Assembly (NCBI GenBank): GCA_031213475.1
Contig: JARUPZ010000003.1
Span: 8,424,313 to 8,488,312 of the forward strand
Origin: Nereocystis luetkeana
Taxonomy: Eukaryota; Sar; Phaeophyceae; Laminariales; Laminariaceae
Direction: 5' to 3'
Length of the DNA stretch: 64,000 nt
Shown: positions 269 to 63,114 of the stretch, one piece after another
Layout of the letters: the number at the start of each line of letters is the position of its first letter
How positions within the stretch are numbered: position 1 is the first letter of the stretch
Made by a program: the position numbers and the translations under genes
The notes under the pieces: model-generated
Seen by the model: only the letters and a program-made list of their open reading frames with translations
Databases searched by the model: none
What the model was told of the DNA's origin: nothing

Positions 269-758
269 TTATTATACCTGGTACCAGGTATGTCACAAAT
301 GAACGTAGAATGGAACAACAATGTACGTATACAGACAAAGTTAGACCAGGTATTTGCGAGACAAATCGGGAACCCTGCAAAAGCCAAATATAGGTACGTA
401 TACCTATGGCATTTATTTGAGCCATTCACGGAGCACGGAAATTATACCGTACGTACGTGGCACTCCGAAAAGACCTTCCTGGCAGGCCCTCGCTCAGATT
501 GTTGTTTGTGTGATCGGCCAGCGCCCGATCGTACCTGTGAAAAATATTCGATGAAATATTGTAAATTACACCCCTCCCCTTCTGTGCCCGCTCTTCCTAC
601 TGGTACGGCTATAGGTACACTGAATAGTAGCTAGCTTTAGACCACAGATTATCCATCAGCCCTGCCAGACTGGTGAGGAGAGGGCCCGCCGAAGGCGCCT
701 CAGGAGGACCCCGTAGAGCGGCTTCTTTGCCAGAGCCACGTAGATACAGTGCGTGCCG
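269..758. other. unrecognised spacer between two SINE copies
   Basis: I recognise no gene here. It begins with the doubled footprint motif (TACCTGGTA 275-283, TACCAGGTA 282-290). A degenerate copy (GACCAGGTA) lies near 344-352. The open frames across it have no protein-like character. Confidence 0.4.
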
Positions 759-1118
759 CCGGTCGCCCCGGTGGTTCAAGTGGTTAACCTCGAATTCTAC
801 TTGTTTGAGTCCTGGGTTCGAGCCCTAGGAGGGTCGGACTTTGACTTTATTTGCAAAAATAAAAAAAGGGATTCAATTGTTGAGAGCGCCTTGCAGCGTG
901 GGTAGGCACAATTCGATGCGAGTCGACGAGGGAAGAAAAGGCTGAAATCTTCTCGCGATAAAAATGAAGGCACGTACCGTAGCGGGAAGGGGGGAGAAGA
1001 GCCTGCTATGTGACCCCGGATCTGAGTTACGAGTTGGAAGGAGAGAGAGAAGAAGATGTGCGAAGATAATGAATGGGATGGAAAAAAACAACAAAAAACA
1101 AAACAAAACAAAAAAAAA
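759..1118 (+). mobile_element. tRNA-derived SINE, copy 2 (full length)
   Basis: This is the best full-length copy. The tRNA-like head starts at CCGGTCGCCCCGG (759). Box A is TGGTTCAAGTGGTTAA (about 771-786) and box B is GGTTCGAGCCC (815-825), spaced as in a tRNA-type RNA polymerase III promoter. A body of about 260 bp unrelated to tRNA follows, then an A-rich tail (1080-1118). The predicted acceptor stem does not close, so this is not a working tRNA gene. No clear target-site duplication was found. Confidence 0.9.
771..825 (+). promoter_or_regulatory. internal RNA polymerase III promoter of SINE copy 2 (boxes A and B)
   Basis: Box-A-like TGGTTCAAGTGG and box B GGTTCGAGCCC are about 45 bp apart, as in tRNA genes and tRNA-derived SINEs. 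Function is inferred from this match only. Confidence 0.6.
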
Positions 1119-2163
1119 ATATCATACATACATATAATACAAAGTACTTGATTTAACCTCAACACAGCGAAAATCTCACAGGCGGCTGGGGGTCAGGCAT
1201 GGCGGCAGTATACGTAGCCGTTGCACTTTTCGGCCGAGTATAATAACTAGATATTATACCGGTTACTACCCGTAGTATGCAACGATGATAGTAGCAGTAG
1301 TTAGTGTGATACACTCATTTAGGTCGGTCTTTATGTATGTATTTATGTAGTATATATATCGGTCTTAGGGTTATTAGGTAGGGCCATTTTTATCGGAGAG
1401 ATTCTAATCGGAGAGTTTTTTTTTTTTTTGTCGTTGGCAGCATGTATGTTTGAGTGGGGCACCCGATGCCCCCAACGGTATTTGATATTTGTCGTGGTAA
1501 TCTTATTCCCGGTTTTCCGTTTTCCCTCTTCGGAGTAATCTAGACACTCTCCTGAGGCCTGCGAGCGTCTGTTTGGCCACAGAAAAGGGGTCAAATTGAA
1601 CCCTTAAATAATCTACTCGTAGATGAAAGTACAACTAAACTGAAACCAGCAATATGTAGGACCCAACTTGAATACTGCTGCAGGCACGGAGAAGTGCATC
1701 TGGAAGTTAACCTTCCACCCAACTCTATAATAAGGTACGATCGGGAGTTGGACAATCACATTAAAAAGGCCGGGACCCCGTTGCCCCAGGGCAGCATGTA
1801 GTGTACCTATAAATGGCTTAAAATGATTCGGTTTACTCAGTTTTGGTTTTCACCCAAATATAGATGTTACAGCCCGCCGTATATTAAACTATTTTTCGCT
1901 TACCTATACGTGGTATTATGCCAGGTACAGAAGAAGTAAAGTGAACGCCAGTGATCGAACAGCAGTCAGTGCTTTCAGCTTGCAACAGCCACACAACAAG
2001 ATGCCGTGGCCGTGTCAACGTACTGCTGTACCAGGTTTAAGACTCGGCTGTGCTTTTGTTTTTGGAGTTTAGCGTGTAGCACCAGGGAGGTGCAGAGCGG
2101 TCTTCTCCAACAGTCTAACAGTGGGGCACACAGTTGTGCCGTTACAGTGCTTCATATAAAGAT
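1119..2163. other. unrecognised intergenic sequence
   Basis: No gene is recognisable. Near 1383-1425 there is a short match to the terminal repeat of family D (TATCGGAGAG twice, followed by a T run), perhaps a decayed end. Degenerate CCAGGTA motifs lie near 1921 and 2031. Confidence 0.35.
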
Positions 2164-2254
2164 ATGTCGTCAGACGTGGTCGTGGTCGAAGGCCCCGGTG
2201 GAGGGGGCGAATATCAGCAGCAGCTGGACCAGCCTGTGGCGGAGGAAATATCAG
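2164..2254 (+). CDS. possible first exon, paralogous to the one at 59,967
   Basis: An ATG opens a 30-codon acidic peptide starting MSSDVVVVEGPGGGGEYQQQ. It ends at G|GTGGGC, a plausible splice donor in phase 1. A paralogous segment at 59,967-60,054 has the same start (MSSDVV), the same LDQ and AE positions and the same donor in the same phase. This conservation of frame is the main reason to think it codes. The product is not recognised and no downstream exon could be assigned. It could be the first exon of a duplicated host gene or of a transposon gene. Confidence 0.4.
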
Positions 2255-2595
2255 GTGGGCCCCTGGGAGTTTTTCTGCTGAATTAGGGGGTATGCAAAGT
2301 ACTCACTCTAGAGTCCCGGTGCGTCTACGTCATCGGGAGATGGTATCATTGACGACTTACTTGATCCTATTAAAAACATATACCACAGGACCGGTATTAT
2401 TATAGGTGCCTGGTACGGTAATAAGGTGAATACTGTATGCATTCGTTGTATCGGTGGCGCCTAATTTTCGGTCGTTGGCGATACTTGAGTTGGTAAGTGC
2501 ATACCTGGTACCTGGTACATGGTATGTATGTATGTATTGGGTTGCAATCACCTCCGACAATGAATATATTTATTTACAAGGTATATCAGGTTCGG

Positions 2596-2697
2596 TGTTG
2601 TTGTTGTTGTTGTTGCTGTTGTTGTTGTTGGTGTTGTTGTTTTTGTTGTTGTTGGTGTTGTTGTTTTTGTTGTTGTGTTGTTGTTGTTGTTATTATT

Positions 2698-2728
<31 letters not shown>

Positions 2729-2754
2729 TTTTTGTTGTTGTTGTTGTTGTTGTT
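2596..2754. repeat. (TTG)n microsatellite, 3' tail of B copy 1
   Basis: An almost pure TTG array with a few TTT/CTG interruptions. It is the (AAC)n tail of a B-family retroposon read from the other strand. The poly-Leu, poly-Cys and poly-Thr/Gln frames across it are artefacts. Confidence 0.9.
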
Positions 2755-3173
2755 TTCACATTGACTCTGAAATCAGTGCCGGAGCCCATAAAAGATCAGA
2801 GAAGACTCCTCAAAACTCAAAATTCGGATGAAAAGCACCACGCTTCTCACCTACCTACCAGCCTAAAAAGACTTGAGACGCAGAACTCACACATTATTAC
2901 ATGAAAATAAATAGCAAACTGACCTATTAATAACACGGCCGCGGGTATCCACTCAACTTACAGCGTATTGTTCCCCCGTAACCACAACCAATCAACTGGC
3001 TCTATGACTCTATGAACAACTACCGACTAATTTTAGCGGTTACAACAAAACAGTAACCACAGCTGTCTGGTGTGCTGCCTGTACAGTGCGAAATGCACGG
3101 TTAACAAAAAGAGGAACACACCTACCTCCTGCTGCCTAATAGGGTGCTGCTGTCAGAGTGACGATACGCAGAC

Positions 3174-3212
<39 letters not shown>

Positions 3213-4020
3213 TGAAAAAACATCAATCGAACCTGAACCCACCCTATCTCAACGATCGCCATGTCTCCCGGACTGTCTGACACAAACAAGGTGAAGCACA
3301 GCTATTATTCGAAAGGATACTGCGTACCTGACAAATACCGGGGATCATCCCCCATGAAGGGTATGCAACTTGCCAACTTACGAAGATCAGTGACGGGAAT
3401 AACAGGTACCAGGTACATGCTATAGTACGAGTACAACCTCGTAAAACAGGAAGAACAAACCGTGTTGCTGCTCTCGTGATGGTGTGCGCACCGGTCGCGG
3501 GTCTGTACGTGTGCCGTCTTCTCCTTTCCTCCCCCGTCCCAAAAACACAATGCTCCTGGCAACTAACTTGCGGTTCTGATGTGGAAAAATAATATCGCGC
3601 GAAGGGTGAGTTCAAAACGCCTTCTCCCCTCTCGTCGACCCTCTGTCCCCCCCCCCCTCCTTTGTCGTCGAATCCAGGCTCCTGCCGGCACAGTTAAACT
3701 GTGCCCTAGTCTGGCGTGTGGTGGCGCCTGCCTCCGCGCACGGACATCCCCATTGAGCTTTGCTGCTCTGCCGCTGCTGCCTAATAATGTCGCGAGAATA
3801 ACAAATAATAGGTGTCCGCACCTGACGCACCACGATCGACCCAAGTTTAATATACCACGCCTAAGCCTCGCGGCAGCAAGAAGGTATCACTCGCTGAGGG
3901 TGAGTCCGGCCTCACACCCGCCAAAAACACTTACCCCACTCGCAATCGCCTTGCTTGATAGAGGACACGCCTCGCAGCATCGGCCGCGTGGAGAACGGAG
4001 CATATATGGCGACGCGAATT
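2755..4020 (-). mobile_element. family B retroposon, copy 1 (diverged, about 1.3 kb plus tail)
   Basis: Reading leftward, the copy ends in the (AAC)n tail. It matches B copy 2 (4733-6240) in order along its length, including the shared GCGCCTGCCTC stretch and the GGTATCACTC region near 3880. It is diverged and lacks the part holding GACGAAGGAGTCC. No reverse transcriptase is encoded, so I call it a non-autonomous retroposon. It contains TACCAGGTA at 3407-3415. Confidence 0.65.
3176..3208. repeat. (AT)n microsatellite
   Basis: About 16 perfect AT units inside B copy 1. Confidence 0.95.
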
Positions 4021-4732: not shown

Positions 4733-6240
4733 ATTGTTGTTGTTTTTGTTGTTGTTGTTGTTGTTGTTGTGGTTGGTGGTGTTGTTGTTGTTGTTGTTGC
4801 TATTATTATTATTTCTCTTGCCATCCGACAATGTGCAGCATGATCTTCAACATGGATCTCTCATAACTTTCCCGAAAGAGTGTTGCTGCTATTATTGTTG
4901 TTGTTCTCACATTATTAGCTCTCTGACGAAGCAATCCGTGGTCACACAAAGGTGGTGGAGCCCTAGCAAGATCAGAAAAACCATAAAAAACTCGAAATTC
5001 GGCTGCCTTAAAAAACAAAAAAAACACGAGACGACGAAGGCGCACACAAGATATTAATGAAATCAACGTGCAAATTGAAGTAACATGACCGCGGGTATAT
5101 CCTCTCAACTACAATAATACCTGGTATAAAGTTGCCCCGTTCCCACCACTTACCAAGTTGTGGCTGCTGACTACAGGGACTGCTGTCCGGAGTGCTGCCT
5201 GCACCGTACGAAACGCACGGTATCATATTTAATAGTCGTGAACACAATCCCTTAAGAGAGGAACACACCTGTCTGCCTGCTATCTCTGGAGTGCTGTCAG
5301 AGTGAAAAGACTCGCGGATATATATGGAGTAAAAAAGGAGAAATCGAACCTTACTTCGTACCACACGAATATCAACGATCGCCATCTCTTCCTGGGCTGT
5401 CTGACACAAAAAGGTGCAGCACAGTTATGTTACCACGTCCCTGATGATTGCGTGGGTTATTCCCCATGAAGTGTATACAACTCGTTAAACTACAAAAACC
5501 AGCGACGTTAATAACAACAAGTATAGATACCAGGTACCTGGTACTATTCTGCCTCGTGAAAATCATACCCAGGAAAAAACAAACTATGACTGCTTCTCTC
5601 GTGTTGATTGTGTGCGCGCCTGTCATAGGTCTCTGTGCACCGTCTTCCTGCCGCTGACCATGGCCGCCTCATCGCCTTGGCCCAATCTGCCCGCTCATCT
5701 GCACGACGTACGTGCTCTCGTTGCCACTCCCTTCCTGCCGATTTCCTTTCTCCGCCATCCCGAAAAACAAAATGCTCCTCGCACTTGCGGTTCTGATCTG
5801 AAAAATATTTAATGAAAATTCTCGCCCAGGGAGAGTTCAATGCTCCCCTTCCCGGCACGTCAACGCTCAGTCCCCCTCCTCCCTCGTGGTCGAATCCAGC
5901 CTCCTACCGGCGCAATAGACTGTGCCGTAGTCTGGGCTGTGGTGGCGCCTGCCTCGGCGCACGGACACCCTGATTGAGCATTGCTGCTCTGCCGTAGCTG
6001 CCTAAAAAAAGACGCGCGAATCGTAGGTCTCCGTGCCTGAGGCATCACGTACAACCCAACTCTACCGCCGCCCGAGCCCCGCGGCCACAGGCAGCAGCAA
6101 GGAGGTATCACTCCTTGAGGGTGGGTCCGGCCTTACACCCGACAGAAAGACCTACCCCACTCGTTATAAGCCTGATAGGGCATGCCTCGCAGCATTCCTT
6201 GCCGAGGCAGCGAGGGGAACGGAGCTATATGATGATACCT
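4733..6240 (-). mobile_element. family B retroposon, copy 2 (about 1.5 kb)
   Basis: The (TTG)n block at 4733-4815 and a second one at 4882-4905 are the tail on the opposite strand. The conserved 3' end follows (CTGACGAAG, the GGTGGTGGAGCCC region), then the middle (ACCGTACGAAACGCACGG), and a GC-rich 5' part to about 6240 that is shared with copy 1. No protein domain was recognised. It holds TACCTGGTA at 5118-5126, a 7-bp insertion relative to B copy 4, and a doubled motif at 5528-5543. Confidence 0.7.
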
Positions 6241-6244
6241 GGTA

Positions 6245-7210: not shown

Positions 7211-7679
7211 CGTGAATGTGCAGTAGTAGCGACAGCACTTACTTTGAAAACAAGTGCGTGTCCTCCTTTTTGATGGGGCGGAGTTCGTCGCTGACATATG
7301 AAAAATCTGGTTCCAGGCGCTTAAAATTTCGGTTTCTCGTACTACCGTTGTAAAGACAAAGTACCAGGTACCAGGTACTTATTTCTGCTGTAGAACGAAC
7401 AGCACAAGGAACGCAGGAGACTCGCTCGTACATACAGAACGTCCAAAATATATGCTCCGTTGTTCTCTCGCTGCTCTTTCTCATAAGAAGAGCACAGCCG
7501 ACCCGTCTAGACTATCGAGAGCAGCGTACTACGTGTTTTATCTGCGTGTGCATCGTGAGAGAGTGCGGGCTTATACGGTATACTCCTACTACTGGGGCAA
7601 GAGAGAACACTCGTTTAACCTCTGCGTCCCTCGTTCTCGTTCTACGGCAGAAAACAAATAGTTGGCTACGTGGATTTTG

Positions 7680-11116: not shown

Positions 11117-11460
11117 AGGTTGTTGTTGTTGTTGTTATTGTTGTTGTTGTTGTTGTTGTTCTCGCATTAACTCTCTGACGAAGGAGTCCATGGTCACACA
11201 AAGGTGCTGGAGCCCTAGAAAAATCAGAAAAAAACAAAAAAGGCTGCCTCAAAATACACGAGACGAAGAAAGCGCACACGAACGAGCTAAAACCAATGTG
11301 CAAACTGGACTAACATGGCCGCGGGTATATCCTCTCAACTATAACATAGAAGAGTACCCCCGTTCCCACCACTAACCAACTCGTAGCTGCTGACTAATGC
11401 GGAATCCTGTCTGAAGTGCTGCATGCACCGTACGAAACGCACTGCAGCGAAAAAGGTATG
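11117..11460 (-). mobile_element. family B retroposon, copy 4 (truncated)
   Basis: Begins with (TTG)n at 11,117-11,160 and the conserved end CTCGCATTAACTCTCTGACG, and reaches the ACCGTACGAAACGCAC block near 11,427. It lies in tandem with copy 3. Both end at TGCAGCGAAAAAGG, so one may have inserted into the other. It is the empty-site reference for the motif in B copy 2. Confidence 0.8.
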
Positions 11461-13109: not shown

Positions 13110-14849
13110 TTACGTTGACCCTTCGGTAGCTCGGAACTCCCTAAGGTCTTCGACTATGCATCTATGCCAAGTCTTACACTGTCCGCCTGGTCTCGGGTTC
13201 TCCCCACCAGCTATCGTCCCGAGCATTACCCGATTGGGTAATCGCTCCTTGCTTTGCCGTGCCACGCCCCCCGCAAAGAAGAGCCGCCGTTTACGAATGG
13301 TCGTTTCGATGCTCTCGCAACGTGTCATCTTGAGGGCCTTCGCGTACGAGAGGGTGGCATGGTCAGTATGAAGTCGGCGCTGGAAGCCAATGACTCGCAA
13401 CAGGACTTGGTGGTGAGCCGTTCGAAGCTTGGCAAAGTGTTCCGCTCTGAGGGTCCACGTCACACACCCGTACAGCAGGGTCTCAATCACCTCGGCCTTC
13501 AGCATTCGGACTTTAAGGCTAAGGGGGGCGGTCGTCCTATCATACAACTCCGGGCCGAACCGTTTGAGGCATGCTCGCATGAGGCGGATCCGTCGGTCGA
13601 TTTCGAGCGAGAGGTCAGCGTTTTCGTGGATAACGCCGCCTAGGTATAAGAACTGGGTCGTCTGCTTATACCTCTGACCTGCCGCTTCGATGACGAGCGG
13701 TGGTGCGAGGGTTGTCCGGTCTGGTGTTTGTAGGACCATTGTCTCAGTCTTCTTTTCCGACACCGTGAGGCCCGTTGCTTCGAAGACAGTCACGATGACT
13801 GTCATCATTTTTGCGAGCCCTTCAGCCGACTTCGAGACAATTCCTGCATCGTCGGCGTACAACATGCCCCATACAGACCTTCGCACGCACGCCAATGGCT
13901 CCTCCTTCCCTGTTCGAACTACTCCAGCTTCCCAGAGTTGGACCAAATCCCTTACAATGGCTTCGTCTTGGCTGAAGCGTACTAGTACGACGTGTAACGC
14001 AGCAGCGAAGAACACGTTGAACAGTAACGGTGATAGTACACAGCCTTGCCGCAGCCCCTGCGTGACATCAAACCATTCCGAGAGCTCGCCGTCATCAGTA
14101 CGCACGCGAGCCCGCATGCCATCGTGGAAATTACGGATAATTCTCAGCATCTTGGTTGGTACACCAAAGCGTGTGAGTACCTTCCATAACAGCTCTCGGT
14201 CGACAGAGTCGTACGCTTTCTGCAGATCGATGAAGCACACGTATAAGGGGATTTTCCTCTGTCGTCCGAGCTCTTGCAGCCGGTGCACGACGAACAACAT
14301 ATCAATCGTTGATCGTGCGGGGCGGAAGCCGCACTGTTCCTCGGGGAGTAGTTCCTCGATCTCGCCGTAGTTGCTCAGACGGGACGCGACGATTTTCAAC
14401 AACACTTTGCCTGCGTGGGCAACAAGCGAAATCCCTCTATAGTTGTTGCAGTCAGTTCGATCCTTCTTTTTGTGAAGGACCTTGATGATCGCATCTTTCC
14501 ATTTCTGAGGGACTTCTCCTGTTAACCAAACATTGACAAGGATGCTGTGAAAGCGCTGGGCGAATGCCGGGTGGTCGATTTTTAGGAGTTCGACCGGGAG
14601 ACCATCTGGCCCGACAGCTTTCCAATTCGACATCCCCTTAAGTGCTTCGGTCATCTCGTCTATGGATGGTTCATCTTCAAGCGACAGTTTAGGCGGTCGC
14701 GGTGGCAAGAGGTCGATGATCGTGGGATCGAGTTTCAGCGAAATCGTGTTCAAGAGTTTGTGGCAAAACCCCGCCCATCGTTCACGAATTCGCACATTAT
14801 CCCGTAGGATCGTGCCATCCTCGTCCCTAATGAACTGTTCGCTCCTCGC
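13110..14849 (-). pseudogene. LINE reverse transcriptase part
   Basis: Copies LINE RNA into DNA at the nicked target. Visible RT motifs in order: [14 protein letters not shown], the [10 protein letters not shown] region, [15 protein letters not shown], the [13 protein letters not shown] catalytic aspartate region, [16 protein letters not shown], and the active-site [14 protein letters not shown]-terminal region ([23 protein letters not shown]) is of the type seen in RTE-related proteins. The frame is open from just after the TAA at 14,850 through [11 protein letters not shown] to a TAA at 13,110. It lies in the same frame as the endonuclease part, so both belonged to one polyprotein. Antisense frames across it are shadows. 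Confidence 0.9.
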
Positions 14850-17174: not shown

Positions 17175-17299
17175 TCGGGGGACCATCATAGTAAATAGAA
17201 CCTCTACGGTACGCCCAAAAATTACCAGGTACCACGTATATATTTACTTTTTTCCACTGACAGTATTTGTTCCTACCTGGTATTTAGTATGGTCCCCCC
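17175..17299. mobile_element. M1 MITE carrying two motif insertions
   Basis: Ends CGGGGGACCAT and ATGGTCCCCCC match M1. Two copies of the 9-mer lie inside (17,223-17,231 and 17,274-17,282). Removing CCTGGTA from the second restores TTCCTATTTAGTATGG, which equals the sequence at 4513-4528 apart from single substitutions. Confidence 0.75.
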
Positions 17300-18200: not shown

Positions 18201-19849
18201 CCGTCGTTGCGTGCCTCCTGACTGGGTTGTTGCTGCACGGAAGCACAACGATACCTTGGCTCGTCTCTCTATCTCGCTTCCCCCCCTTTGCCCGACTCGA
18301 GCTCGCGAGTCGCGGAAAACGGGTTTCTTAGATTTGTCCAATACTTTCATCAACGATTTGACGGGTAGCGGACTGGTATGTCTCAGGTTAGGCTTTGGCG
18401 AACAGCCCGGGAGTTCCAAGCCGGCCAAAAAGGCGGCGCCATGGGCGCGGGTGCAGGACCCAGCGCTTTGGCGCTGCCCGACGTAGACCTTGTCGATGGC
18501 AATGCTTACTGTTGTGCTATTCTCTGCATTGTGTCCTTCTGCCTACCCCTTGCCTACGAACGTCGGCTGCGCGTTTAGCACTAATCGCATGTCCGAAAAA
18601 AATAGTTCGAACACAAAAAGCTGGAACTAATTTTGTTCACAGTCCTGGGTCCATGCTGGGTCACGATATTACTCACGGATGCAGTACGTGTGTTTTTTCT
18701 TCACGTATGACTCTACAAAAACCTTATTACCTGCTTTAACTTGGGACCCAAATGACCTACTGAGAGATACATGGCACTTGGAATCCACGCGGCCTGTTGC
18801 AATCGGTTTTTTGTTTTGACAAAAAATAATCCATACTGTAGACCTACGGTGTGTTTCGTGGATTCCTGGGTGTCGTTTCGTATCCTATTTTCCCCCTTAG
18901 TTTCCTGTTTCCCTATTCCTTGTGTCCTTCCCGTTTTTTTTTTCTCCCCAGAGAAGAGGAAAACTAAAGAACATTGATTGATCGAAACGGGTCCTCGGGG
19001 TCTGATGGATGTGCGGGAGGAGGAGCGGTGGTTGGGACTCGCTTCCGTTGCACGCTTCGAACCTCTTTGCAGCAGTGTCGTGTGGTCTGAGCCAACACGG
19101 TGTACCCAGGGGTACTGGTACTGCTGCCATGCTGAGTACACGAACTGGGATATGCAATGCTTGGAATGGTTGTGCTTGTGATATACCTGGTATGTCCGCT
19201 ACACGTGTTGTATGGCGAGGTGTGTACTGGGTGCCATTTCTATATCCGTCGGTGTGGTTGTCTGTTTCTCGTTCTCTCCACATTGTGATAGTTGAATGCA
19301 TGATCAACAACAAACCACGGCACATCAACCCTCCTTCTTACGGTAGATAACATCACTGTTTTGTTCGTGGGCATAAAGGGGGGACGGTAGTAACGGGAAA
19401 CAAGCCTTGCGAATGCCTTCTCACCTCCGATTTCCCCTTTAGATACGACGAGCAAAGTTTTGATATCTGCACAGACTCTATAGCGACACTCTGATTTCTC
19501 GGAATCGTTTGGGTCCGAATCTACGGTCAAATGCAGGTATCGTAACTTTAGCCCGCATCGGCGCGATATCTGTGTCACCAAGCTGATCCGAGGAGAAGAT
19601 CGGGCTGGCCGTTGCCTGGACGACAGTTTTCCGTTTCCCTCCGGGAACCCCCTGTCTCGTGGTAACGCGGTGTAGGGGAGCAGTTCATGCCTGATCCCGG
19701 ACTGGTCGCAGTACATTACGACAGAGTGAATACAGCAGCAGCTTTCGAAAGCCGAAGAACGATATTAGGAAGAAATATATGTCGGGCGTCCTTACGGAGG
19801 GTTGCTGCTACTTCGTTCGAAAACTTGCTCGCCTTATATCGCTCTCGTG
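18201..19849. other. no recognisable feature upstream of the channel gene
   Basis: Open frames up to 158 codons (for example - strand 19,240-19,716) show no recognisable domain. TACCTGGTA lies at 19,184-19,192. The promoter of the downstream gene could lie here, but I see no motif I can defend. Confidence 0.3.
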
Positions 19850-26700: not shown

Positions 26701-27845
26701 GGTTGTTGCCCCTCAGGGCCGTCTTCGGTTCGTCACGGTCGTCAACCCACACGAGGTGCTTTGAAGCGGACGGTGAGGTTCCCTCCAATGCTCACCCATC
26801 CGCCTGAGGTATTTGTGGACCCACAACGGAACAACATTGGAACCCAAAACTCACCGATCAACGCGGCTGCTGCACGTTGATGCGTTGGTTTTTCCCTGCT
26901 TCTGCAGCTCTGGCCTACCACACAATCCTCGTCCTGCTTTTTGTCTTCTTGTTTTCGGGGGGTATTACTGAATTAAGCAGCCGATCCCTCACCGCACAGC
27001 GTCCAACCGATCAACCACCCCTCCCCTCTCTTTCGTGCCTTGCTGTAAACCAACGAATCGCGACATAGATAAGCTTACTACGCTACCAGGCAGATCATGG
27101 CCAGAAAACTATCGTCATCCTAAGACGTGGACGATGGCCGCAAAAGACAAACCCGGAAGGGCTTGCGATAGGCAGCACTTGTTTTATGTAGTAGCGAATG
27201 AACGAAACGCGCAGTGAGTGCCGAAGTGTTGGGGGTGTCTCTCTGACGAGTATGAGCGCTGCTCCGTCTGGAAACGGGAATACCAGGTATACGTTATTGG
27301 TAAAATTATCATCACGATAGAGAAACAAGTACAGCCCCTCACGCCCCCCTCCCCTTTCGCTTGGCTGTTTTCGGTCAGCGCACGGGATCGTTTTCGATGG
27401 ATACCAGTCCGGACCCAAGCGAAACGGGCATCGTGGTTGAGGCGGCCAGGAGCGGGAGTGGGGCGATGATAGACCTGGTTCTGGCCGCTATGTTCGAGCT
27501 TTTGACCAACGAGAGGGTGGGTATTGTTGAACTGTACCGTTATCACACAAAATGAATAGGTGGGGAAAAATGAGAGGGAGTTGTGGTGGTGTAGGTGCAT
27601 TTCGCGTTGGTTTTGTGTCCAGGAGCGAGGGCAGGAGATAATTTGGTTCTTCCCAAATAGTTCGCGAGTGCTCTCCGCTTGGTCGTCGGCCAAAGCTGCA
27701 GCGGGCCCACCCGTACCTCAATCCGCCTTTGACGCGGGCCCGCTCTCTTTCCCTCTATCTGTCCCTGCCCCGTCTTGAAAGGGATGCGTGGTCAATGGTC
27801 AAATGGCTGAGGCAAGCAACAAATGAGCCCCCCCCCCCCCTCCGA

Positions 27846-38252: not shown

Positions 38253-41200
38253 GGTGGACCACGATGTGACCGCACGCGCGCGTCGTGAACGCCATACTCG
38301 GCTTCCTTGCACGTCGTCGTGGATCTCGAAGTTTGTCAATGCCGGCGAGGTTTGGTAGTCTGTTTTCGAACACGGAGCTAAACGAGGGCCGAACGCAACG
38401 TGGCGCGTATCACGCACGGCGTGCAGGTCTCATGCCGAACTTTGTACCCCGACAAGGGACCGATCTACTTGTAGCAACAGACTAGACCCGGAAGATGATT
38501 CAGCCGAGGACAAGTTTGATTGCTCGCTTTATGGATTGTGATTGTTGTTCAGAACACTACTAACAACTCGAAACAAATGGAGCGGCGGTGCAGCGGTCCT
38601 GTGGCGGCAGTCAAGGAAATCGAAGGTCGGTTTTGCCATCTTTGAATTGTGCTTATTGACGGCAAGCGAGCCATGCCGCCGAGGCTTCAAATACATATCA
38701 TTTGGCTAGGTTGGTTATGCGGTGGCCGCAAGCGAACGTGACCAAAACTGACGAAGGCATGTGGATCTGTGTATATGCAGCCGCACAGATTCCGAGTGGT
38801 GACGACGCGCGCTGAGTACATTGCGATGCGCCTGGGTTCGGAAGAAAAGCAAAGATAGGAAGGATTTTCTCTGGCAAGTCGTCAAGAGTTCGCTTAAATA
38901 TCTCTGCTAGTGCGGCGTATGTTCACTACAGTCTGCGGCCTGGTAGTCTACGTACGTCATCGTAGTACAAAAGTATACCCTCCTGAAGTAAGCTTCTCGA
39001 ACCTGTGGATGCACCACTCCTCCTAACTACTGTGACACGGCAAACAGCCACTGTACGGGTTATCGCCACCGAGGGAAGATGTAGGCACAGCCTGACCCTT
39101 TCTGAAGCTACGTGTAACAGCTCGCAAAACACTGTAGTAGGCGTCGAGTCGCTAAGAGTCCTACGATATAAGCTCCGTGACCCTAGCGTTTCAGGGGTGC
39201 ATACCAAAGCAATCCCGTGTCTAGGCGGCTCTTTGCTTATGAACAATCCATGTTTGTGTATGTGAACACGATCAACGCAGTACCAGGTACAAACGAGACG
39301 ACAAGGGGTTTGTCGAATATGTTGAGCTATTTCAGCCCATAGGGCACCGAATCACCTGTGATACGGCAGCCTTCCGCCGTAAAACCATTTACTTGGTCCA
39401 AGCTCCAAACATCTCAGGCAGGATTACCTGTTTGTTGAGCGCAAGCAGACCTCTTGTGGGCAGGCGTGTGGGGGGCCTTATTTGAGTCGGACATTATTGA
39501 TTTTTTCGGTCAAAACATTCAACGCGGCGGATGGACAGCGGTACAACGGACGCGTTGGTGGGTACAGCGGATCATGATAGGCGCGAGTTCTAATGGCCAG
39601 GTATAAAATATATTAGGTCTTATTTTTCTTTTGTGATTGTGTCGAGTAAACACGATGTTGCGTTGCAGCTAGTTTTTGGTTTTCCTGGAATCAGGACGAC
39701 GTGCTCCGTTCGGGAACCTATCTTGGAAACTTCAAGAGCTAGGCTCTTGTCCATATTATTAACCAAACTTCCGCCGGGCGCTCGCAAGTACAGTTAGGGC
39801 CCATCTTAAGGGGGATTTTGATTTTTTTCAATTTGATTTGTTTGTTTGTTTTTTTTAATTTTTGATTTGCATCTGATTGGCCGAAGAGTGAACGACCAAG
39901 CAGGCAAATTAAAAAAATTGAATTTGAGCGAAACGGCTTTTGGGGCTTTTTTCGTGTGATTTTTCGAATTCCTATTTGGAGTTTGGGAGTTCCTCGGACT
40001 TGGCCTAGCATGTTCATGGTGGGTCAACACCCTCGGCGGAGTCTGGGGTGATTTTAGGCCGCTTCGGCGACCACGATCGAGGCGATAAAACCCGAACCTC
40101 AACGAGAGGTGACCGGATCAATACCCGCGCCCACACTCACACACCATAGCACATCGTACCCCGGCGGTGGCGCCTTAAAAGTAATCATGGCGGCCGCAAT
40201 CCCAATTTTGAGGCCTGCTCGATCGGCCAACAATCGCAAAAACCGAGCAAATGAGCAAACCAACGAAGGATACGCTCGGGACCTCGATAGCTGCATCACC
40301 GCTGCTGTTCCGCACGTGGCGCTTGAGGGCTTCCTCCGCCCACCCAAGACCCCCTGAGAGTGATAGCTTCCTATCCTGCGCGACCAAAACGAGAAAGAGG
40401 CTGACGGTGGCGCGCCGGCGGAAGCGCAAACCTTCGCTCTCGTCTACGCTCCTCGCTGTTTGTCTGCTGGGCGTTGTGTGACACGGCACGTTCTTCCTGA
40501 AATATTTTTCGATTGACAACTTGTACGTTGTTCCCCGATAGGACACAAGCACGTTTTGTTTTCGAAATCGAATTAAAATTCATTGAAATTAAATTTTTAC
40601 CATCAAAGAGCGTTCCCCGTTAAAATGGGCCCCTATCCCGCAATCCCGTTTCTAACTCAAAACACCCCGGCGCTGTAGCACCTTACCGTTACCGGCGATG
40701 GAGAGGCCATCTTGATTTTACTCAGCGAGCCCGTCAGAGGAATTTCCTGCTCAAATTCGGCGGCGAGGATCATGTGGCCGCCGGCTTTGAAAGCGGCTGA
40801 TCGAGTGTGAAAACATGAGGCTTATCTCCACATACGTCATCATGGTAATATTTGTCGGATATTTTCGCCTCAAAAGATTGTGCTGCATACCGGTATACTA
40901 TGACCAAGTTACCACACCCCCTGAGACGAATTTCAGACCCGTGTAAACGGAAGTGATGGCTTTGGAAAAATTTCGCCGAGAAGGTTGCACAGACGTATCG
41001 CTCGGTGTATACGCCCTCCCGTTGTCGAAAACCCCAGCCTTGAACATCGTATGGGGGGGGGGGGGTGCGCTCTCTTGCCTATCATTTTTCGAGGTTACAC
41101 CGCATAGATAGGCGTATCGGGTTGAGCCGCATATTTGTGAAACGTACCTTGTCAGATACGTAGGACTAGAGGCTGCATTTGGATGCCGACATCAGTTTAT

Positions 41201-43612: not shown

Positions 43613-44680
43613 TCGGCATTTGGGGAGTTCGACGTGCGTGGTTTTCAACCGAAAACCGCAAGCCGACTTGTTCGGTCGTTTCTGCGTTGGCTCCCGTATA
43701 CCGAACCAGGGATGGTTTGGTCATTTTTCTTCTCTCGGAGAGCAAACGGAAGGCGTCAAACGGGGTGCCCCTAACGATTGAATTATAATCTGGAGTAAGA
43801 TACGACTATAAGGAAGTTCATCCGTTTTTTATGCTGGGGCAGCGCGTGCCGGTACTATGCTTTGGAGTTAAGAGTACACGGGCGTGTCGAGTGCATTTTG
43901 ATATACGACGAGTTCCGCATACATCAAGAAAAGGACACATATTGAGGCGTTCGACGAGTATTCCCGTTTTTTATCAAAGTTTGATCTTAACAACGTTCGG
44001 CGTAAGTCGGAATAGCTATGGCGCGGATGTCGTACTTCTTGCTAGGCGGTTTGAGCTCACGCGTAACAAGTGTTCAACAGTTTCGACGCGGCGGTCTGCT
44101 GTACGCGTTAATATCTAAGCGCCAGAATCTTTGTCGACACCCAGCCGCCGTCCTCTTAGTCAACGTAGATTGGGCGATCTGTCCGCCCTTTACGTAATTA
44201 TGTGTGATTTGTAGGGTTTTCCTACTGTTCTCGGCGACACGTAGTGCGCCCCTGCTCTCTTATAAAGAAAGGAGTAGGTGTACCTATATACCATGCTACT
44301 CGTGCGCCGGGTGCGGTTGGGTTGTATGTAGCTCGACCTCAACCTATGGCGTGGGAGCAGGAGATAAATACCAAATACCAGGTATAATATTACAGCATAT
44401 ATATATATATATGTAGACCGTTCGGAAAGGCGCCTCGCATCGCCGTGTCGTGGTATCCCTATACGTCATCAACACATAAATATGCATCCCACCCGGAGAA
44501 ATATAACTCTCTCGGCAATCTCCGCAGATGAACTACAGCTATGTACATGGATCACACGCAAACAATAATCATACAACTTGTACATCAGACATCGACGCGA
44601 CTAAGCTGACGAGTGGCGACTATGTTTTACACCATTTATTATCTTCGCCAGACTCTCGCGTTCCCTCCCAGCGGTACCTC
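43613..44680. other. unrecognised spacer
   Basis: No gene was recognised. TACCAGGTA lies at 44,376-44,384 next to a short (AT)n tract (44,397-44,412). Confidence 0.35.
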
Positions 44681-47545: not shown

Positions 47546-48317
47546 AGACAATGGTGCAACCAGAGACATCGAAGAGGGTCAAACGTATATCGTATATTCG
47601 ATTGGGTGTGCGTGTCTTCGTTTGGTCGAGTCAGTGTCTTGCTAGAGATGCACAACATATGCACGACGATTGGGCTACTACTATTGATGTAGTCTGGTCA
47701 TCGCAGCGAGAATGCTCGATACCAAACTTTTACGTGGTTCTCGTGAAATTTCCATGTTTGCCAGCCCACATTGCACAGGTTTGTTGACGGGTTCCTCGTT
47801 CTAGAGGGTTTTGTACGCCCGTATGGCGTAAGGCTCAACATTGTTCGTTTCCGGTGTCTCATAACTGAGTAAACGATACAGCAGCGTATGCGCGTAGTCG
47901 TACGTACATCACGTTTGGTTTGTATCGATGCCTGTCGTTTGCATTTGGCTTTTAAGCCAATACCTCAAGGCATGTGTTCAATACTATGTACCAGGTAGTC
48001 ATTTAGTATCGAACAATCATGTGTGCGATCATGAACAACGGGCGAACAGAGATGCTCGAGCAACAAGCGAACAGAGCACGAGCAACGAGTATACCTGCAC
48101 GCATTGGATTAAAACTCTTCACAACAGTACAAAACAATATAGGCGGAAAACCACAGGCAGGGTGCGTACATGACAGCAATGCAAATGTGACCATCATTCC
48201 ACGCAGACAACAACGAAAACATATTTATGTACACATGTACCAGGTATGCCATAAATAAACGTATGCACAATCGAATGTGAGGGGATATACGAGCACAACG
48301 AATACCGGACAAGACAG
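47546..48317. other. unrecognised spacer
   Basis: No gene was recognised. TACCAGGTA lies at 47,989-47,997 and 48,238-48,246. Confidence 0.35.
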
Positions 48318-52066: not shown

Positions 52067-52758
52067 TACCAGGTACATAGACTCGGTTCTTCTTCGCGGG
52101 GGGCGTGGCACGGCAAAGCAAGGAGGGAGTTCCCAATCGGGTAATGTTCAGGACGATGGCTGGTTGAGAGAACCCGACACCTGGCTGACACTTCATGACA
52201 TGGCACAAATGCATAGTCGAAGACCTTTGGGAGTTCCGAGTCACCGCGTGGTAAAAACAACTTACCTTCTTGCTGGTTGGAGTTGAGGGCGGGCTGTGGT
52301 CCACTGCAGAACAAAAAATAGAGAAGTGGTACCGGGGGTCCTCGAAGCAGTCGAACGCTCCATGGTGAGGTGGCTTTAGGATGAGGCACAGCTGAGTTGG
52401 CAGCGCCGCGCATCCGCCGTGGGTGGCGCCCAAGGAAATGGATGGAGGGGGTGCAACAGGAGGAGTGGGAGGAAACCCCCCCAAAGGGAATGCGGGAGGG
52501 GGGGGGGGCTGGAGGAGTAGAAGAGGAATCACGGTGAACGAAGTGAGGAAGGAGATGGAAGACAGGGTAGGAAGGCATCAGACCGACTAGGAATCGACAC
52601 ACGTCTATGCTACGCGTGCCGCCAACCGGTGCAACTGGTGCGGACGTGGTCTTCCTTTGTCTTCTTCTTTTTCTTTTTCGCGCTCGATCCTCCGTGGTTT
52701 CGTTTCATATATTTATCTTCCCTTCTTCTACTAATGAACGGAGTTGAGTGGCATGAGT
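52067..52758 (+). mobile_element. LINE, 5'-truncated copy, coding end
   Basis: From CTTCGCGGGGGGCGTGGCAC to the post-coding GTGGTCTTCCTTTGTCTTC and the start of the 3' UTR (GAGTTGAGTGGCATGAGTGG). Frameshifts and stops break the frame. It is interrupted by a G element; the 3' UTR resumes at 53,138. TACCAGGTA (52,067-52,075) lies just upstream of the LINE match. Confidence 0.8.
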
Positions 52759-55550: not shown

Positions 55551-57815
55551 TCAAAAACGAAGCCAACGTAAGGGATTTGGTCCAACTCAGTGATGCTGGA
55601 GTAGTTCGAACAGAGAAGCAGGAGCCGTTGGCGTGCGTGCGAAGGGGTGTAGGGGGCATGTTGTACGCCGATGATGCAGGAATAATTGTCTCGAAGGCGG
55701 CTGAAGGGCTCGCGAAAATGACGACAGTCATCGTGACTGTCTTTGACTCAGCAGGCCTCACCTTGTCGAAAACGAAGACAGAGACAATGCTCCTACAAAC
55801 ACACGTCCAGACAACCCTCGCATCACCGCTCGTCATCGAAGCGGCGGGCCAGAAGTATAAGCAGACGACCCACTTCTTATACTTAGGGTCATTCTTATCG
55901 GAGAGCTTTTTTCCCAATTTTTTGACATTTGTTTCGCGCAATTTTTGAATCTTCCATATTTTCCTGTTTTTTTTTTCCAAATATTGGAATGTTAACGAAC
56001 TTGATATTTTTGCTTCTAGGAGAATTTCACGAATAGTGACAGAACGCCTCCGCATATCGATACATATCTCCAATTATTTCCAAACTTTGGAATTTTTGGA
56101 AAAAGAGCTCTCCGATAAGCGGCATTATACACGAAAACGCTGACCTCTCGCTCGAACTCGACCGACGGATCCGCCTCTTGCGAGCATGCCTCAAAAGGTT
56201 CGGCCCGGAGTAGTATGATAGGACGACCGCCCCCCTTAGCCTTGAAGTCCGAATGCTGAAGGCCGAGGTGATTGGTTCACTACTGTACGGGTGTGTGACG
56301 TGGACCCTCAGAGCGGAACACTTTGCCAAGCTTCGCACGGCTCGCCACCAAGTCCTGTTGCGAGTCATTGGCTCCCAGCGCCGACTTCCTACTGACCATG
56401 CCACCCTCTCGTACGCGAAGGCCTTCAAGATGACACGTTGCGAGAGCATCGAAACGACCGTTCGTAAACGGCGGTTCTTCTTTGCGGGGGGCGTCGCACG
56501 GTAAAGCAAGGAGCGATTACCCAGTCGGGTAATGTTCGGGAAGATAGCTGGTGGGGAGAACCTGAGACCAGGCGAGCAGCGTAAGACTTGGCATAGATGC
56601 ATAGTCGAAGACGCTAGAGAGTTCCGAGCCACCGAAGGGTCAACGGAATTTACCCCCTTGGTGTTTGAAGTTGAGACCGCGTTGTGGTCCACTGCAGACC
56701 CAACGGCGGGGAAGTGGTACCGGGGGATCCTTGAAGCCGCCGTACGGTTCATGGTGAGGTGGGACGAGGCTGAGGCTGAGATGAGTAGGCAGCGCCGCGC
56801 ATCCGCCTTGGATGGTGTCCAAGGGAATGGGGGGCGACGGGGCAACAGGAGAAGTGGCAGAAAACCCGACCAAGGGAATCCGGAGAGGGGGGGGAACAGG
56901 AGGAGTAGAAGGGAAACTGCGGTAGAAGAAAGTAGCAAGACGATGGCAGACAGGGTAGCAAGGCACCAGGGCGACAAGGAAGTAGAACATGACCGTACCA
57001 CTACTAGTAGTGCAACCAACTGGCGCAGCTGATTCGAACGTTGTCTTCTTTTTCTTGCGTTGATTCTTCGTGAATTTCATTTTATTTATTTCTGTCCCTT
57101 TCTTACTGATAAGCCGCATTGAAGCAGTCGTGTGGCGTGGTTGGATGTTGAACCTACTCTGCTCGTTTCGTGCTGGGCATAGTTGACGTATGCAGGGCGA
57201 AGACGGCAGTCTGGGCAGAAAGGTACCAAGCGGAAAGCAGGGAGAACCTAGCCATACTACTCATACCACTAACTGCTGCCGCTACTTGGAGGGTGCTTTG
57301 GGCTTTGGTCTGCCTGTTATTTTTCCTTTGTTATTTTTCCCTTGGTTCTTTGTCTTACCCTGTTTACAAGCAGTGGTGTTTTAGTTATTTTTTCTTCTTT
57401 TCCCAGCTCGTTCTTTTTCAAGTGTTGGCCACTTCGCCTGCGGGGGGAAAACACGACAGATTGTTTCTTCGAGTTTTTCTTTCATTTTTTATTTTTCTCT
57501 TTCGATTTGTCTTCTTTGTTTTTGTTTAATCTTTGATTGTTTCCTTTTGTTTCTCTTTTTTCTAAAAATGTGTATGTCGTGACTATCGTATTTATAAATA
57601 GTATCATGACATAGCATTGCATTGCCCACTGCTTCTGTGCTTAGCGTTAGTGCGTACCAGGAAACGTGGCAACGTAGTGTCTCTGTGGCGTGTAGCTTTT
57701 GTGACGACATAACTTGTACCAGGTATATCTTATAGGATTGAAGAATCGGCACGGACACTGGTTGTGCTGGATGTCGACGGGTAGAAAGAACGGTTTATTG
57801 TGGAGAACACACACA
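55551..57815 (+). mobile_element. LINE, 5'-truncated copy with coding end and full 3' UTR
   Basis: Begins in the reverse transcriptase gene (GTAAGGGATTTGGTCCAACT), includes [10 protein letters not shown], and runs through the C-terminal part to the 3' UTR and an (AC)n tail at 57,806-57,815. Interrupted by a D element (55,889-56,120). A CAA-to-TAA change near 56,503 and other lesions make it a pseudogene. Its 3' UTR carries the motif insertion TACCAGGTA at 57,717-57,725. Confidence 0.9.
55889..56120. mobile_element. family D element, copy 3, inserted in LINE coding sequence
   Basis: CTTATCGGAGAGC on the left and GCTCTCCGATAAG on the right are perfect inverted repeats. Removing the element restores the LINE reading TTATACTTAGG...CGGCATTATACACG, which corresponds to the full-length copy. 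Confidence 0.85.
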
Positions 57816-58811: not shown

Positions 58812-59064
58812 AGAGTACAGAGTTACTTCGTCGTCGTGTCCCTTGTCTCTTTGTTACCAGGTATCTCCCTGCGAGACATTCGGAATGTTTTTGATTTTTT
58901 TAACGTAGTAAGTTGCATGTTTTCCGAAGTAAGTATCGAAACTAGTAATACCGAAACATCGCACTTGTTCCGGTTAGAAACTCGTTTTTTCGTCGAATGA
59001 TGTGGTGTATAGAATGTTTTAGTTCGATATTCACCACAAACGTGTACGTACTCGTACTATTAAA
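58812..59064. other. unrecognised spacer
   Basis: No gene. TACCAGGTA lies at 58,855-58,863. Confidence 0.35.
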
Positions 59065-59168
59065 TATTACGGGGGACCAAAACTTGTTATTAATAGTCAA
59101 ACAGGAAAATATGTAGGTTTTCGTCTATACCGTACCAGGTAGGTCGTATTTACTAGGTCCTCCGCAAT
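59065..59168. mobile_element. M1 MITE with a motif insertion
   Basis: TATTACGGGGGACCA on the left, TAGGTCCTCCGCAAT on the right. TACCAGGTA at 59,134-59,142 interrupts ACCGTAGGTC, which is intact in the copy at 61,037. Confidence 0.8.

Positions 59169-59199: not shown

Positions 59200-59255
<56 letters not shown>
59200..59255. repeat. (TA)n microsatellite, longest in the window
   Basis: About 28 uninterrupted TA units. A shorter tract follows at 59,324-59,349. Confidence 0.97.
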
Positions 59256-59260
<5 letters not shown>

Positions 59261-59436
59261 CTATTAAAAGTGAACATACCTGGTACAACTCATCTCCCAC
59301 TCTTTTTAATCTCCAGATTTTACTAATATATATATATATATATATATATTCCTGAGATTTCCGCTTTGGGAGAAACTAATGACTTGTGATCGGAGGCCTG
59401 CAAATCTTGATGTATACCAGGTACGTCCAATTATTT

Positions 59437-59498: not shown

Positions 59499-59966
59499 TA
59501 CCAGGTACTCAGGTTTTTTTTTTCCTCGAAACTCACCTTTGCAAGATCGCCGGTGTGATGCTTCGGTCGCGCGTACTACGGGGTGTGTGGTAATATTATT
59601 TTGAGTAATCTACAGCATCTGCCAGGTTTCTTCGCGATGCCAATGGACACAACATGTCAGAAAAGGCGTGTTTGAATACCTGAAATATTTCAGTACATCT
59701 TACAACAGCAGCAACAATATACCTGGTACGATAATATTAATAATAGTGAAAATTTCTACTGGTACAGGGGTGGTTTACGTAGCAAATTGCGTACAAATAA
59801 ATGAAGCAAATGCCTATATACGCAACACCATCATAACACAGCTTTATACTGACTACTCTGTACTCGTTTGGACACTGCTGCTGCTGTTGTCGGGTAGTGT
59901 GTAGTGGTGGGTAGAGCCGAGGGCCCACGCAGCGCCCCGCCAGGATATAGTGCCGTAGTGGGCGAA

Positions 59967-61036: not shown

Positions 61037-61146
61037 TATTACGGTGGACCATAGTAAATAGGACCAAATATTGTTAGTAAAAATAGCGAAATGTATAGGT
61101 TTTTGTGTTTACCGTAGGTCCTATTTAATATCGTCCCCCGTAATAG
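61037..61146. mobile_element. M1 MITE, intact, motif-free reference
   Basis: TTATTACGGTGGACCATAGT on the left and ATCGTCCCCCGTAATAG on the right, flanked by TA. The centre TTACCGTAGGTCCTATTT is uninterrupted. Confidence 0.88.
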
Positions 61147-61359
61147 TGGCGTTCTGCAAAGTTTTGAACATTCGCAAGTATTTGGTGAATAGTGGGGACG
61201 GCCCCAACCTTTCGAAACGTCACTTCTTGGTCGAAATAACTATTCGAAGTGCTATACAGCTGTACCTCCAAAACAAAATGAAACTATTCGTGAATATTTT
61301 CGAACGCAGTTTTTTTTTACAAGGGCCGGGAGATCTCGTCCAGTATACCAGGTATCATA

Positions 61360-61606
61360 TACCATATAATGTGTATGTCGTGCCTGTCGTATTGGTAGTA
61401 TGATGGTATGACCTTTCATTGCTCACTGCTTGCTGTTCCTCATATCAGATATATTACTGCGTACGTGGCAACGTACGTAGTATCTCCGTGGCGTAGCTTT
61501 GTGACCACAGAACTTGTATTTTTTTAGGATTGAAGAGTCAGCACCCACACTGGTTGTGCTGGATGTCGACAGGTACAAAGAACGGTTTAATGTGAAGACA
61601 CACATA
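61360..61606 (+). mobile_element. LINE 3' UTR fragment
   Basis: In LINE sense on the + strand: TGTATGTCGTGCCTGTCGTA to GAACGGTTTAATGTGAAGAC and an AC/AT tail. Confidence 0.8.
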
Positions 61607-61621
61607 TATATATATATTTTG

Positions 61622-61957
61622 CTTTTTTTTTTTTTTTTTCATCCCATTCATTACCTTCGCACATCTTCTTCTCTCTCCTTCCAACTCGTAACTCAGATCC
61701 GGGGTCACATAGCAGGCTCTTCTTCCCCCTTCCCGCTACGGTACGTGCCTTCATTTTTATCGCGAGAAGATTTCAGCCTTTTCTTCATTCGTCGACTCGC
61801 ATCGAATTGGGCCTACCCACGCTGCAAGGCGCTCTCAACAATTGAATCCATTTTTATTTTTGCAATTAAAGTCAAAGTCCGACCCACCTGGGGCTCGAAC
61901 CCAGGACTCAAACAAGTAGAATTCGAGGTTAACCACTTGAACCACCGGGGCGACCGG
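61622..61957 (-). mobile_element. tRNA-derived SINE, copy 3 (full length)
   Basis: The T run at 61,622-61,640 is the A-tail. The body and head are intact up to GGGGCGACCGG. TACCAGGTA (61,961-61,969) follows within 4 bp of the head. Confidence 0.9.
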
Positions 61958-62221
61958 CTATACCAGGTATCAAATAGTACGGCTGTAGTCTCATGCTTCA
62001 GTTCGAACGTGGCTCTTTTTCCTGTAGGAATTTCGCGATTTCTCACCCCTAGAGGGCAAACGTTTTTTTTCGCGGCCTTCACTCAACACATTTTGATTTC
62101 CCGGTACAGGGAGCTGAAACACTCATATGTTTTGCACCCAGAAACACTTTTTTTTCTCTTATTAATAATCGACAAAGCAACCCAACGTTCTCTGTCAGGG
62201 GTCAGGAACTGCTGTGGCAAT

Positions 62222-62346
62222 ATTGCTGGGGGGTCGATAGCAAATAGGCCCTACGGAAAAACAAAAAAAAAACTAATACCTGGTATTTGCCTATTTCTAC
62301 TAACTACATTTGGTCATATTTACTATTATTGTCCCTCGTAATAGTA
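62222..62346. mobile_element. M1 MITE, diverged, with a motif insertion
   Basis: Ends TATTGCTGGGGGGTC and GTCCCTCGTAATAG. TACCTGGTA at 62,277-62,285 lies inside. Without its 7 bp the spacing matches the copy at 4445 to within one base. Confidence 0.7.
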
Positions 62347-62691
62347 CGTTCTTTTCAACGATATACCATCGATATTATTTTATCCCCTGTATGTACTCAT
62401 CTGCCAACAACATCGTCAAAGCTTTCTTTGGACTTCCGATGAGACAATGCACGATAGACGATTTCAGCTACGGCACCTGCTGCGTGAGTGGGGAATGACA
62501 CGCACGCACACGCATGGATGCGTGTCCGATCTGCAGAGGAAGTAGGAGTCGTACGAGACGGGCGTGCCGTGAGTCTACCAGGGTTTCGTTTGGCGCTCAC
62601 GCTAGCAGACGGTTGGTTGCTTCGAAGTTAGCTCTGAGAGTCCCAAAGGGGTTATTGATAGGAGGCATCCTATATATATATATATATATAT

Positions 62692-63031
62692 TTATTTATT
62701 TTTTTCTCATCCCACTCATTATCTTCGCACATCTTCTTCTCTCTCTCCTTCCAACTCGTAACTCAGATCCGGGGTCACATAGCAGGCTCTTCTCCCCCCT
62801 TCCCGCTACGGTACGTGCCTTCATTTTTTATCGCGAGAAGATTTCAGCCTTTTCTTCCCTCGTCGACTCGCATCGAATTGTGCCTACCCACGCTGCAAGG
62901 CGCTCTCAACAATTGAATCCCTTTTTTTTATTTTTGCAAATAAAGTCAAAGTCTGACCCTCCTGGGGCTCGAACCCAGGACTCAAACAAGTAGAATTCGA
63001 GGTTAACCACTTGAACCACCGGGGCGACCGG
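62692..63031 (-). mobile_element. tRNA-derived SINE, copy 4 (full length)
   Basis: T-rich tail (62,692-62,706), body and tRNA-like head as in copies 2 and 3. A mutated plus an exact motif (TATCAGGTA, TACCAGGTA; 63,032-63,047) touch its head end. Confidence 0.9.
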
Positions 63032-63114
63032 TATCAGGTACCAGGTATACAGTAGCATACCTCAAGACACAATGGAAACCCCATTACTTTCAGTCGACGC
63101 AGCAATAAGGAGGG

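Follow-up and report, generated by a model that had tools for sequence, protein, structure and literature searches.

What accounts for the recurrence of a single palindromic 9-mer, TACCWGGTA (W being A or T), throughout a 64-kb stretch of the genome of the brown alga Nereocystis luetkeana (contig JARUPZ010000003.1; C3:8424313-8488312; this whole stretch is hereafter termed the window)? Exactly 31 matches were found in the window, the number given in the original prediction, with 30 of the 31 positions being exact and the copy placed at 59134 in fact beginning at 59133. Leaving aside repeats of one to three letters, this is the commonest 9-mer of the window. When the genome (465,085,209 bp in 1,987 contigs) was searched, 182,395 matches were obtained, as compared to 1,744 for the reversed pattern used as control, corresponding to a 105-fold ratio and to a density of approximately one site per 2.55 kb. 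As such, the frequency of the motif genome-wide is far from that expected by chance, and chance copies, as judged by the reversed control, make up a small share (about 1,744 of the 182,395).

The distribution of the motif was considered in a 264-kb set comprising the window and 20 samples of 10 kb each, drawn from seven contigs. This revealed 100 exact copies, where a second-order Markov model predicts 2.8. Because counts in the 20 samples ranged from 0 to 9 (mean 3.45, variance 6.05), the motif is a dispersed feature of the genome, of which the window is no special focus. One 10-kb stretch of contig C4 near 2.0 Mb (L017), a TACTAC/TACTCC-type microsatellite containing no TACCWGGTA, was excluded from the enrichment counts of TA-flanked 9-mers and palindromes, from the scoring of element pairs and from the context counts. 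Among TA-flanked 9-mers, TACCWGGTA towers over the others as a single form. Forms with one mismatch, taken earlier as signs of decay, are indeed present in modest excess (29 in the window; 98 in the 264-kb set, where 57 were expected, next to the 100 exact copies), leading to an estimate of roughly 5% decay among copies. Likewise, the freedom of the central position proved to be confined to A or T, given how variants centered on C or G number only 7 in the 264-kb set, versus 2.8 expected. As a 9-mer search detects sites of the exact form only, it may miss other outcomes; enrichment of the 3-nt form TACAGTA is marginal (1.4-fold). Neither Rfam nor tRNA scanning gave any match in the window.

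How the motif came to lie where it does was addressed by comparing sites bearing it with paralogues. In a flank-distance test, the two flanks of a site served as independent queries, and the spacing at which they matched in the paralogues was compared with that at the site itself. Because of locus ends, 99 of the 100 sites could be used in the flank comparison and in a looser paralogue test, and 97 in the flank-distance test. A spanning paralogue was found for 11 of these 97 sites, with the modal difference in length being +7 bp in six and zero in none. By contrast, 407 of 1,990 random 9-mers were spanned, 266 with a difference of zero and five with +7 (Fisher p = 2.8e-8 for +7 and 1.2e-5 for zero, relative to the motif sites). 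Other TA-N5-TA sites were spanned in 142 of 898 cases, with 71 at zero and nine at +7, three of the nine being shifted views of the event at 57717 in the window. Since the paralogous empty sites, which contain a single TA and lack the 7 bp, differ by +7 in six of the 11 spanned cases and by zero in none, these comparisons show that, at testable sites, TACCWGGTA is a 7-bp insertion at TA in which the TA was duplicated (i.e., TA became TA-CCWGG-TA).

Individual sites illustrate this. At L004:7563, an empty relative is identical at 29 of 30 positions over the junction, while the best empty paralogue of the site at 17274 is identical at 28 of 30, with the one paralogue spanning that site in the flank-distance test differing by +7. 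At 5118, a net difference of +7 was obtained in both of two paralogues in the flank-distance test, with BLAST setting the gap at 8 bp. Copies of the sequence surrounding 57717, found near 9.5, 12.0, 17.4, and 63.5 kb of the window, lack the 7 bp and read CTTGTATCTCTT where CTTGTACCAGGTATATCTT is found at 57717; here, the flank-distance test gave +7 in three paralogues and +8 in two. The copy at 59133, a site not spanned in that test, reads TACCGTACCAGGTAGGTC, with its relative at 61061-61144 reading TACCGTAGGTC. The alignment at 59415 is weak, showing 61% identity and a further gap nearby.

Among the 198 outward flanks of the window and samples, no pair compared (pairs less than 8 bp apart being skipped) agreed at over 17 of 25 letters, and columns of the flanks farther out than about 9 bp were close to background. 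It follows that the flanks are unique and that the motif belongs to no longer repeat, an origin that would have refuted the original prediction. Immediately next to the motif, the context of the target is palindromic. A purine to the left or a pyrimidine to the right was seen in 82% of cases per side (200 flanks), with both being present at 67 of the 100 sites, as compared to 36% of 12,979 other TAs being found as RTAY. Moreover, an additional TA lies exactly 7 bp outward on 33% of sides, as opposed to 6.5%. Exact units were also stacked in 7-bp steps, with six adjacent pairs among the 100 sites, where random placement on the 15,323 TAs of the 264-kb set would give approximately 1.3%. In 15 stacked pairs, eight of which came from the genome-wide matches listed, the central letters were the same in eight and different in seven, as expected if the center of each unit was resolved separately, unlike in a tandem duplication.

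A second palindromic TA-flanked motif, TATTAATA, was seen 93,112 times in the genome, versus 10,689 for the reversed pattern, and is dispersed, with 52 copies in 254 kb where 5.3 were expected. Only four of 53 such sites were spanned, with differences of +6 bp in three and +10 bp in one, the clearest being L018:4568. Based on these few sites, TATTAATA probably acts as a 6-bp insertion (TA-TTAA), in which the gap between the TAs would be 4 nt. Small palindromic insertions at TA thus probably comprise two or more families in this genome. Other enriched palindromes, considered as controls, were mostly found at a size difference of zero, namely, AGCTAGCT (9 of 12), CATGCATG (12 of 16), TAGGWCCTA (7 of 9), GGTTAACC (9 of 13), and CAGCTAGCTG (9 of 12); a sixth, GTACGTAC, had no spanned sites.

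On the strength of these properties, we consider it likely that TACCWGGTA sequences are footprints that remained after excision of a Tc1/mariner/pogo-type DNA transposon that targeted TA and had tips of CCWGG and a 5-nt stagger. Such an element would end in 5'-CCAGG (or CCTGG), and its transposase would cut 5 nt inside each end, leaving a 3' overhang of CCWGG on both broken flanks. Two CCAGG overhangs could then pair as C.G, C.G, A.A, G.C, and G.C, with the central A.A (or T.T) mismatch being repaired to either A or T before ligation, yielding TA-CCWGG-TA. Were later insertions to favor TAs in the same context, including those of older footprints, stacks in steps of 7 bp would be produced. TTAA overhangs, in turn, would pair perfectly and give rise to the TATTAATA class, such that both classes would follow from one rule of overhang annealing. 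The palindromic form of the motif and its free center would fit the annealed tips of such an element. Of the footprint interpretation as originally offered, the 7-bp insertion at TA was borne out, and the palindromic target, the stacking, and the independence of A and T at the center fit the annealing of two 5-nt 3' overhangs with repair of the central mismatch in either direction; excision itself, the stagger, and mismatch repair are inferred, and no element with CCWGG ends was found in the sequence covered. The many footprints, and the fact that no intact element was seen in that sequence, suggest that cut-and-paste movement went on for long and added few copies. A more far-reaching scenario, which we regard as less likely than not, is that of a low-copy yet very mobile TA system that made some 180,000 moves without copy build-up, with a 5-nt stagger and almost uniform repair by annealing (possibly involving dedicated or domesticated machinery), the genome serving as its odometer, alongside a second system with TTAA tips that made some 80,000.

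Footprints are themselves of a known kind. That usually left by Sleeping Beauty, TA-C(A/T)G-TA, is palindromic and has a free central W. We know of no 5-nt stagger described before. In the portions of the literature drawn on here, TA transposons leave footprints corresponding to the 3' overhangs formed by their tips, and both Sleeping Beauty and mariner cut with a stagger of 3 nt (PMC7827188). The present sites resemble theirs in the TA target and its duplication and, on the excision interpretation, in a footprint that would correspond to the 3' overhang of a tip, and differ in having 5 nt between the TAs, in being tied to no element or transposase, and in a number far above that in the reports found. 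The plant mariner-like elements Osmar5 and Ppmar2 similarly target TA and leave element tips upon staggered cutting, yet their footprints, as given in part of the source, are varied and 1-4 nt long (PMC9632168), unlike the single 5-nt form seen here. Passer, of the pogo superfamily, also leaves short footprints, described in the relevant section as 0-4 bp (PMC9976928); pogo-type DDE_1 genes exist in the present genome as well, although unlinked to CCWGG ends. Like this genome, that of Ectocarpus belongs to a brown alga, one rich in Mariner-Tc1 sequences, with 17 families and 11,912 mostly non-autonomous copies (PMC12477816); the words footprint and excision are absent from its main text. In open-access literature, considered by titles and abstract openings, no report of such a number, uniformity, or stagger of footprints was found among the papers listed, although reports may exist elsewhere, and use of the motif string as a search term brought up only unrelated-looking titles.

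Several observations weigh against the excision interpretation. The stagger or footprint of characterized members, as described in the parts of the papers cited above, is 0-4 nt, as opposed to 5 nt here. In rice, the products of excision are complex and a perfect footprint is possibly rare, according to a portion of the account (PMC4423477), whereas a single form prevails here. At five of the 11 spanned sites, the modal difference was other than +7, namely, -4, +4, +5, +9, and +10, once each. At L013:7419, which lies in a repeat array, +7 was tied with -22, and at L004:7563, one of nine paralogues was of equal length. Separation between the groups was poorer in the looser paralogue test (10 of 99 motif sites versus 40 of 898 other TA-N5-TA sites). 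Finally, as the motif at L031:1241 differs from TACCGGTA in a relative by 1 bp rather than by 7, not all copies are clean 7-bp insertions. The region containing this site (L031-L033) is 100% identical on C2 and the small contigs C809 and C1099, probably redundant assembly contigs, and has two inverted LINE-related ends.

The outcome of the search for a parent likewise weighs against excision. No convincing TA-CCWGG-ended element with inverted repeats, as had been proposed, was found in about 0.32 Mb. Here, inverted TA-CCWGG pairs were scored in the window, in the window together with the samples (in one round, the best 40 of 144 pairs being inspected), in the ten DDE_1 loci L021-L030, and in L034-L037. 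A further scoring took in 485 pairs over approximately 317 kb of loci, from which overlapping loci were excluded, as were flanks themselves made up of stacked units. With one exception, the pairs that scored were either weak matches (11 of 16-18 positions) or traceable to stacked footprints, LINE-related copies, or poly-T. The exception, the sole candidate, failed a genome-wide test for being a repeat family. As the sequence covered amounts to approximately 0.07% of the genome, a parent with a copy number in the tens or hundreds would have escaped notice. At the protein level, neither the Tc1/IS630 model DDE_3 (PF13358) nor the mariner model Transposase_1 (PF01359) had any match in the genome, although in the second of these searches the controls gave no match either. 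DDE_1 (PF03184), of the pogo/CENP-B type, had 28 matches genome-wide, although at the loci examined no transposase, these genes included, could be tied to TACCWGGTA. A protein search with the L026 DDE_1 protein brought up 68 relatives, 58 of which contain DDE_1. By eye, the L026 frame retains DETG and MDS, while those of L022 and L024 have lost acidic catalytic residues and so may be domesticated or decaying copies.

The candidate in question, positions 2562-8691 of L036, contains a DDE_1 gene and has ends that agree at 14 of 18 letters past CCAGG. When its end was sought throughout the genome, 137 forward and 147 reverse matches were obtained, versus 0 and 1 for the control. Among the matches listed, those without mismatches were only its own two ends and none had one mismatch, with the others consisting mainly of stacked footprints, along with a few small repeats and a single tandem array on C29. 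Moreover, three of 1,051 same-strand control pairs reached scores of 14, 17, and 18, both ends resemble decayed stacked footprints, and, by eye, the DDE_1 frame has lost acidic catalytic residues. The candidate was accordingly dropped, not being a repeated family.

Other origins of the motif were also considered. That no intact element was seen in the sequence covered and that one form stands far above all other TA-flanked 9-mers would both be in keeping with direct insertion of the 7 bp, as a templated or aborted-integration product, with no long element ever having been present at most sites. Yet the palindromic insert, the free W, the duplicated TA, and the palindromic target match what annealing of overhangs after excision would give, and we know of no mechanism for direct insertion, such that this origin seems unlikely. 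That same lack of intact elements, a density of one site per 2.55 kb, and a single dominant scar could be expected were germ-line elements reproducibly cut out in the tissue sequenced, leaving a 5-nt scar, much as TA-flanked sequences are eliminated in ciliates. The excess of one-mismatch forms, however, suggests inherited scars that age, and no such process is known to us in algae; programmed excision is therefore held to be quite improbable.

Less probable still are two explanations that do without excision. A palindromic 9-mer in which the excess of one-mismatch forms is modest might be a site for binding a transcription factor, an insulator protein, or an origin protein, maintained by selection. 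It would be very surprising, however, for such a site to number 182,395 copies, to show presence or absence of precisely 7 bp in paralogues, to form 7-bp stacks with independent central letters, and to be accompanied by a second motif, TATTAATA, that behaves alike. It is just as hard to credit that the motif forms the end, or part of the interior, of an extant repeat or short inverted-repeat element, or else a heptamer microsatellite. While stacks do occur and the copies at 61961 and 63039 adjoin repeated sequence, the flanks are not shared, as noted above, 94 of the 100 sites do not come second in an exact stack, and those control palindromes that belong to repeats are mostly found at a size difference of zero.

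In the literature found, work on excision footprints deals with small numbers of them, obtained in assays or by comparing strains. Here, one genome offers approximately 180,000 putative footprints that share a single form, and a second form probably accounts for tens of thousands more, although the sequence covered contained no intact element. Should the excision interpretation hold, sequence alone would suffice to follow the rate of transposition, the choice of target, and the fidelity of repair over evolutionary time, and it would be established that a cut-and-paste element can mark one site per 2.5 kb and yet nearly escape repeat annotation. That a single form dominates also raises the question of how breaks are healed in this lineage. 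The copies found in the window are listed in Table 1.

Table 1. TACCWGGTA units and TATTAATA copies in the window, numbered from its first letter.
Feature	Position	Strand	Remark
Two stacked units, TACCTGG-TACCAGG-TA	275..290	.	
Two exact stacked units and one-mismatch unit TACATGG-TA	2502..2524	.	
One-mismatch unit TAACAGG, then exact unit	3400..3415	.	Exact copy at 3407
Unit TACCTGGTA	5118..5126	.	Without counterpart in paralogues 11251-11442 and 17500-17672
Two stacked units, TACCAGG-TACCTGG-TA	5528..5543	.	
Single unit TACCTGGTA	6236..6244	.	
Two stacked units, TACCAGG-TACCAGG-TA	7362..7377	.	
Unit TACCAGGTA, then one-mismatch unit TACCACG-TA	17223..17238	.	
Single unit	17274..17282	.	7 bp missing from sample-locus paralogues; 15 alignments
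Single unit TACCTGGTA	19184..19192	.	
Single unit TACCAGGTA	27281..27289	.	
Single unit TACCAGGTA	39281..39289	.	
Single unit	44376..44384	.	In-register TACCAAA ahead of unit
Single unit TACCAGGTA	47989..47997	.	
Single unit TACCAGGTA	48238..48246	.	
Single unit TACCAGGTA	52067..52075	.	
Single unit	57717..57725	.	Inside LINE-related repeat
Single unit TACCAGGTA	58855..58863	.	
Single unit	59133..59141	.	7 bp missing in paralogue 61061-61144 and sample loci
Single unit TACCTGGTA	59277..59285	.	
Single unit	59415..59423	.	7 bp missing in paralogue 55943-56119
Single unit TACCAGGTA	59499..59507	.	
Single unit TACCTGGTA	59720..59728	.	
Single unit TACCAGGTA	61346..61354	.	
Single unit	61961..61969	.	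Adjoins short repeated sequence (CCGGGGCGACCGG)
Single unit	62277..62285	.	Length difference from paralogues 9-10 bp instead of 7
One-mismatch unit TATCAGG, then exact unit	63032..63047	.	Exact copy at 63039
TATTAATA copies (10)	2925, 7773, 17789, 24049, 59088, 59735, 60150, 60931, 62160, 63867		

Other features of the window and of the loci considered were noted. A LINE-like element is found on the minus strand at 13110-16532 of the window, comprising two adjacent long frames, 13110-14849, the listed relatives of which carry a reverse transcriptase domain, and 14850-16532, which by eye is endonuclease-like. At least 120 matches exist for the LINE-like protein, those listed including two Ectocarpus sp. 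CCAP 1310/34 sequences sharing 52 and 57% identity, and related sequence is also present at about 9.5-13, 48.3-50, 52-53, and 56-58 kb of the window. Short TA-flanked sequences of 77-95 bp with inverted repeats, possibly small inverted-repeat elements, were seen at 63394-63488 of the window, L018:387-463, and L019:406-482, with the ends of the latter two resembling GAACCGCAGTCCCGTTTTGG. Elsewhere, in G000:C29:785088-1507571, the 25-mer TACCAGGCACCTCTCACTAAATAGC appears 23 times among the matches listed with a spacing of roughly 31-34 kb, apparently reflecting very long units arranged in tandem. Lastly, an exon-like frame on the plus strand at 35809-36129 of the window contains hydrophobic segments and, by eye, resembles the pore end of a TRP/polycystin-type channel.

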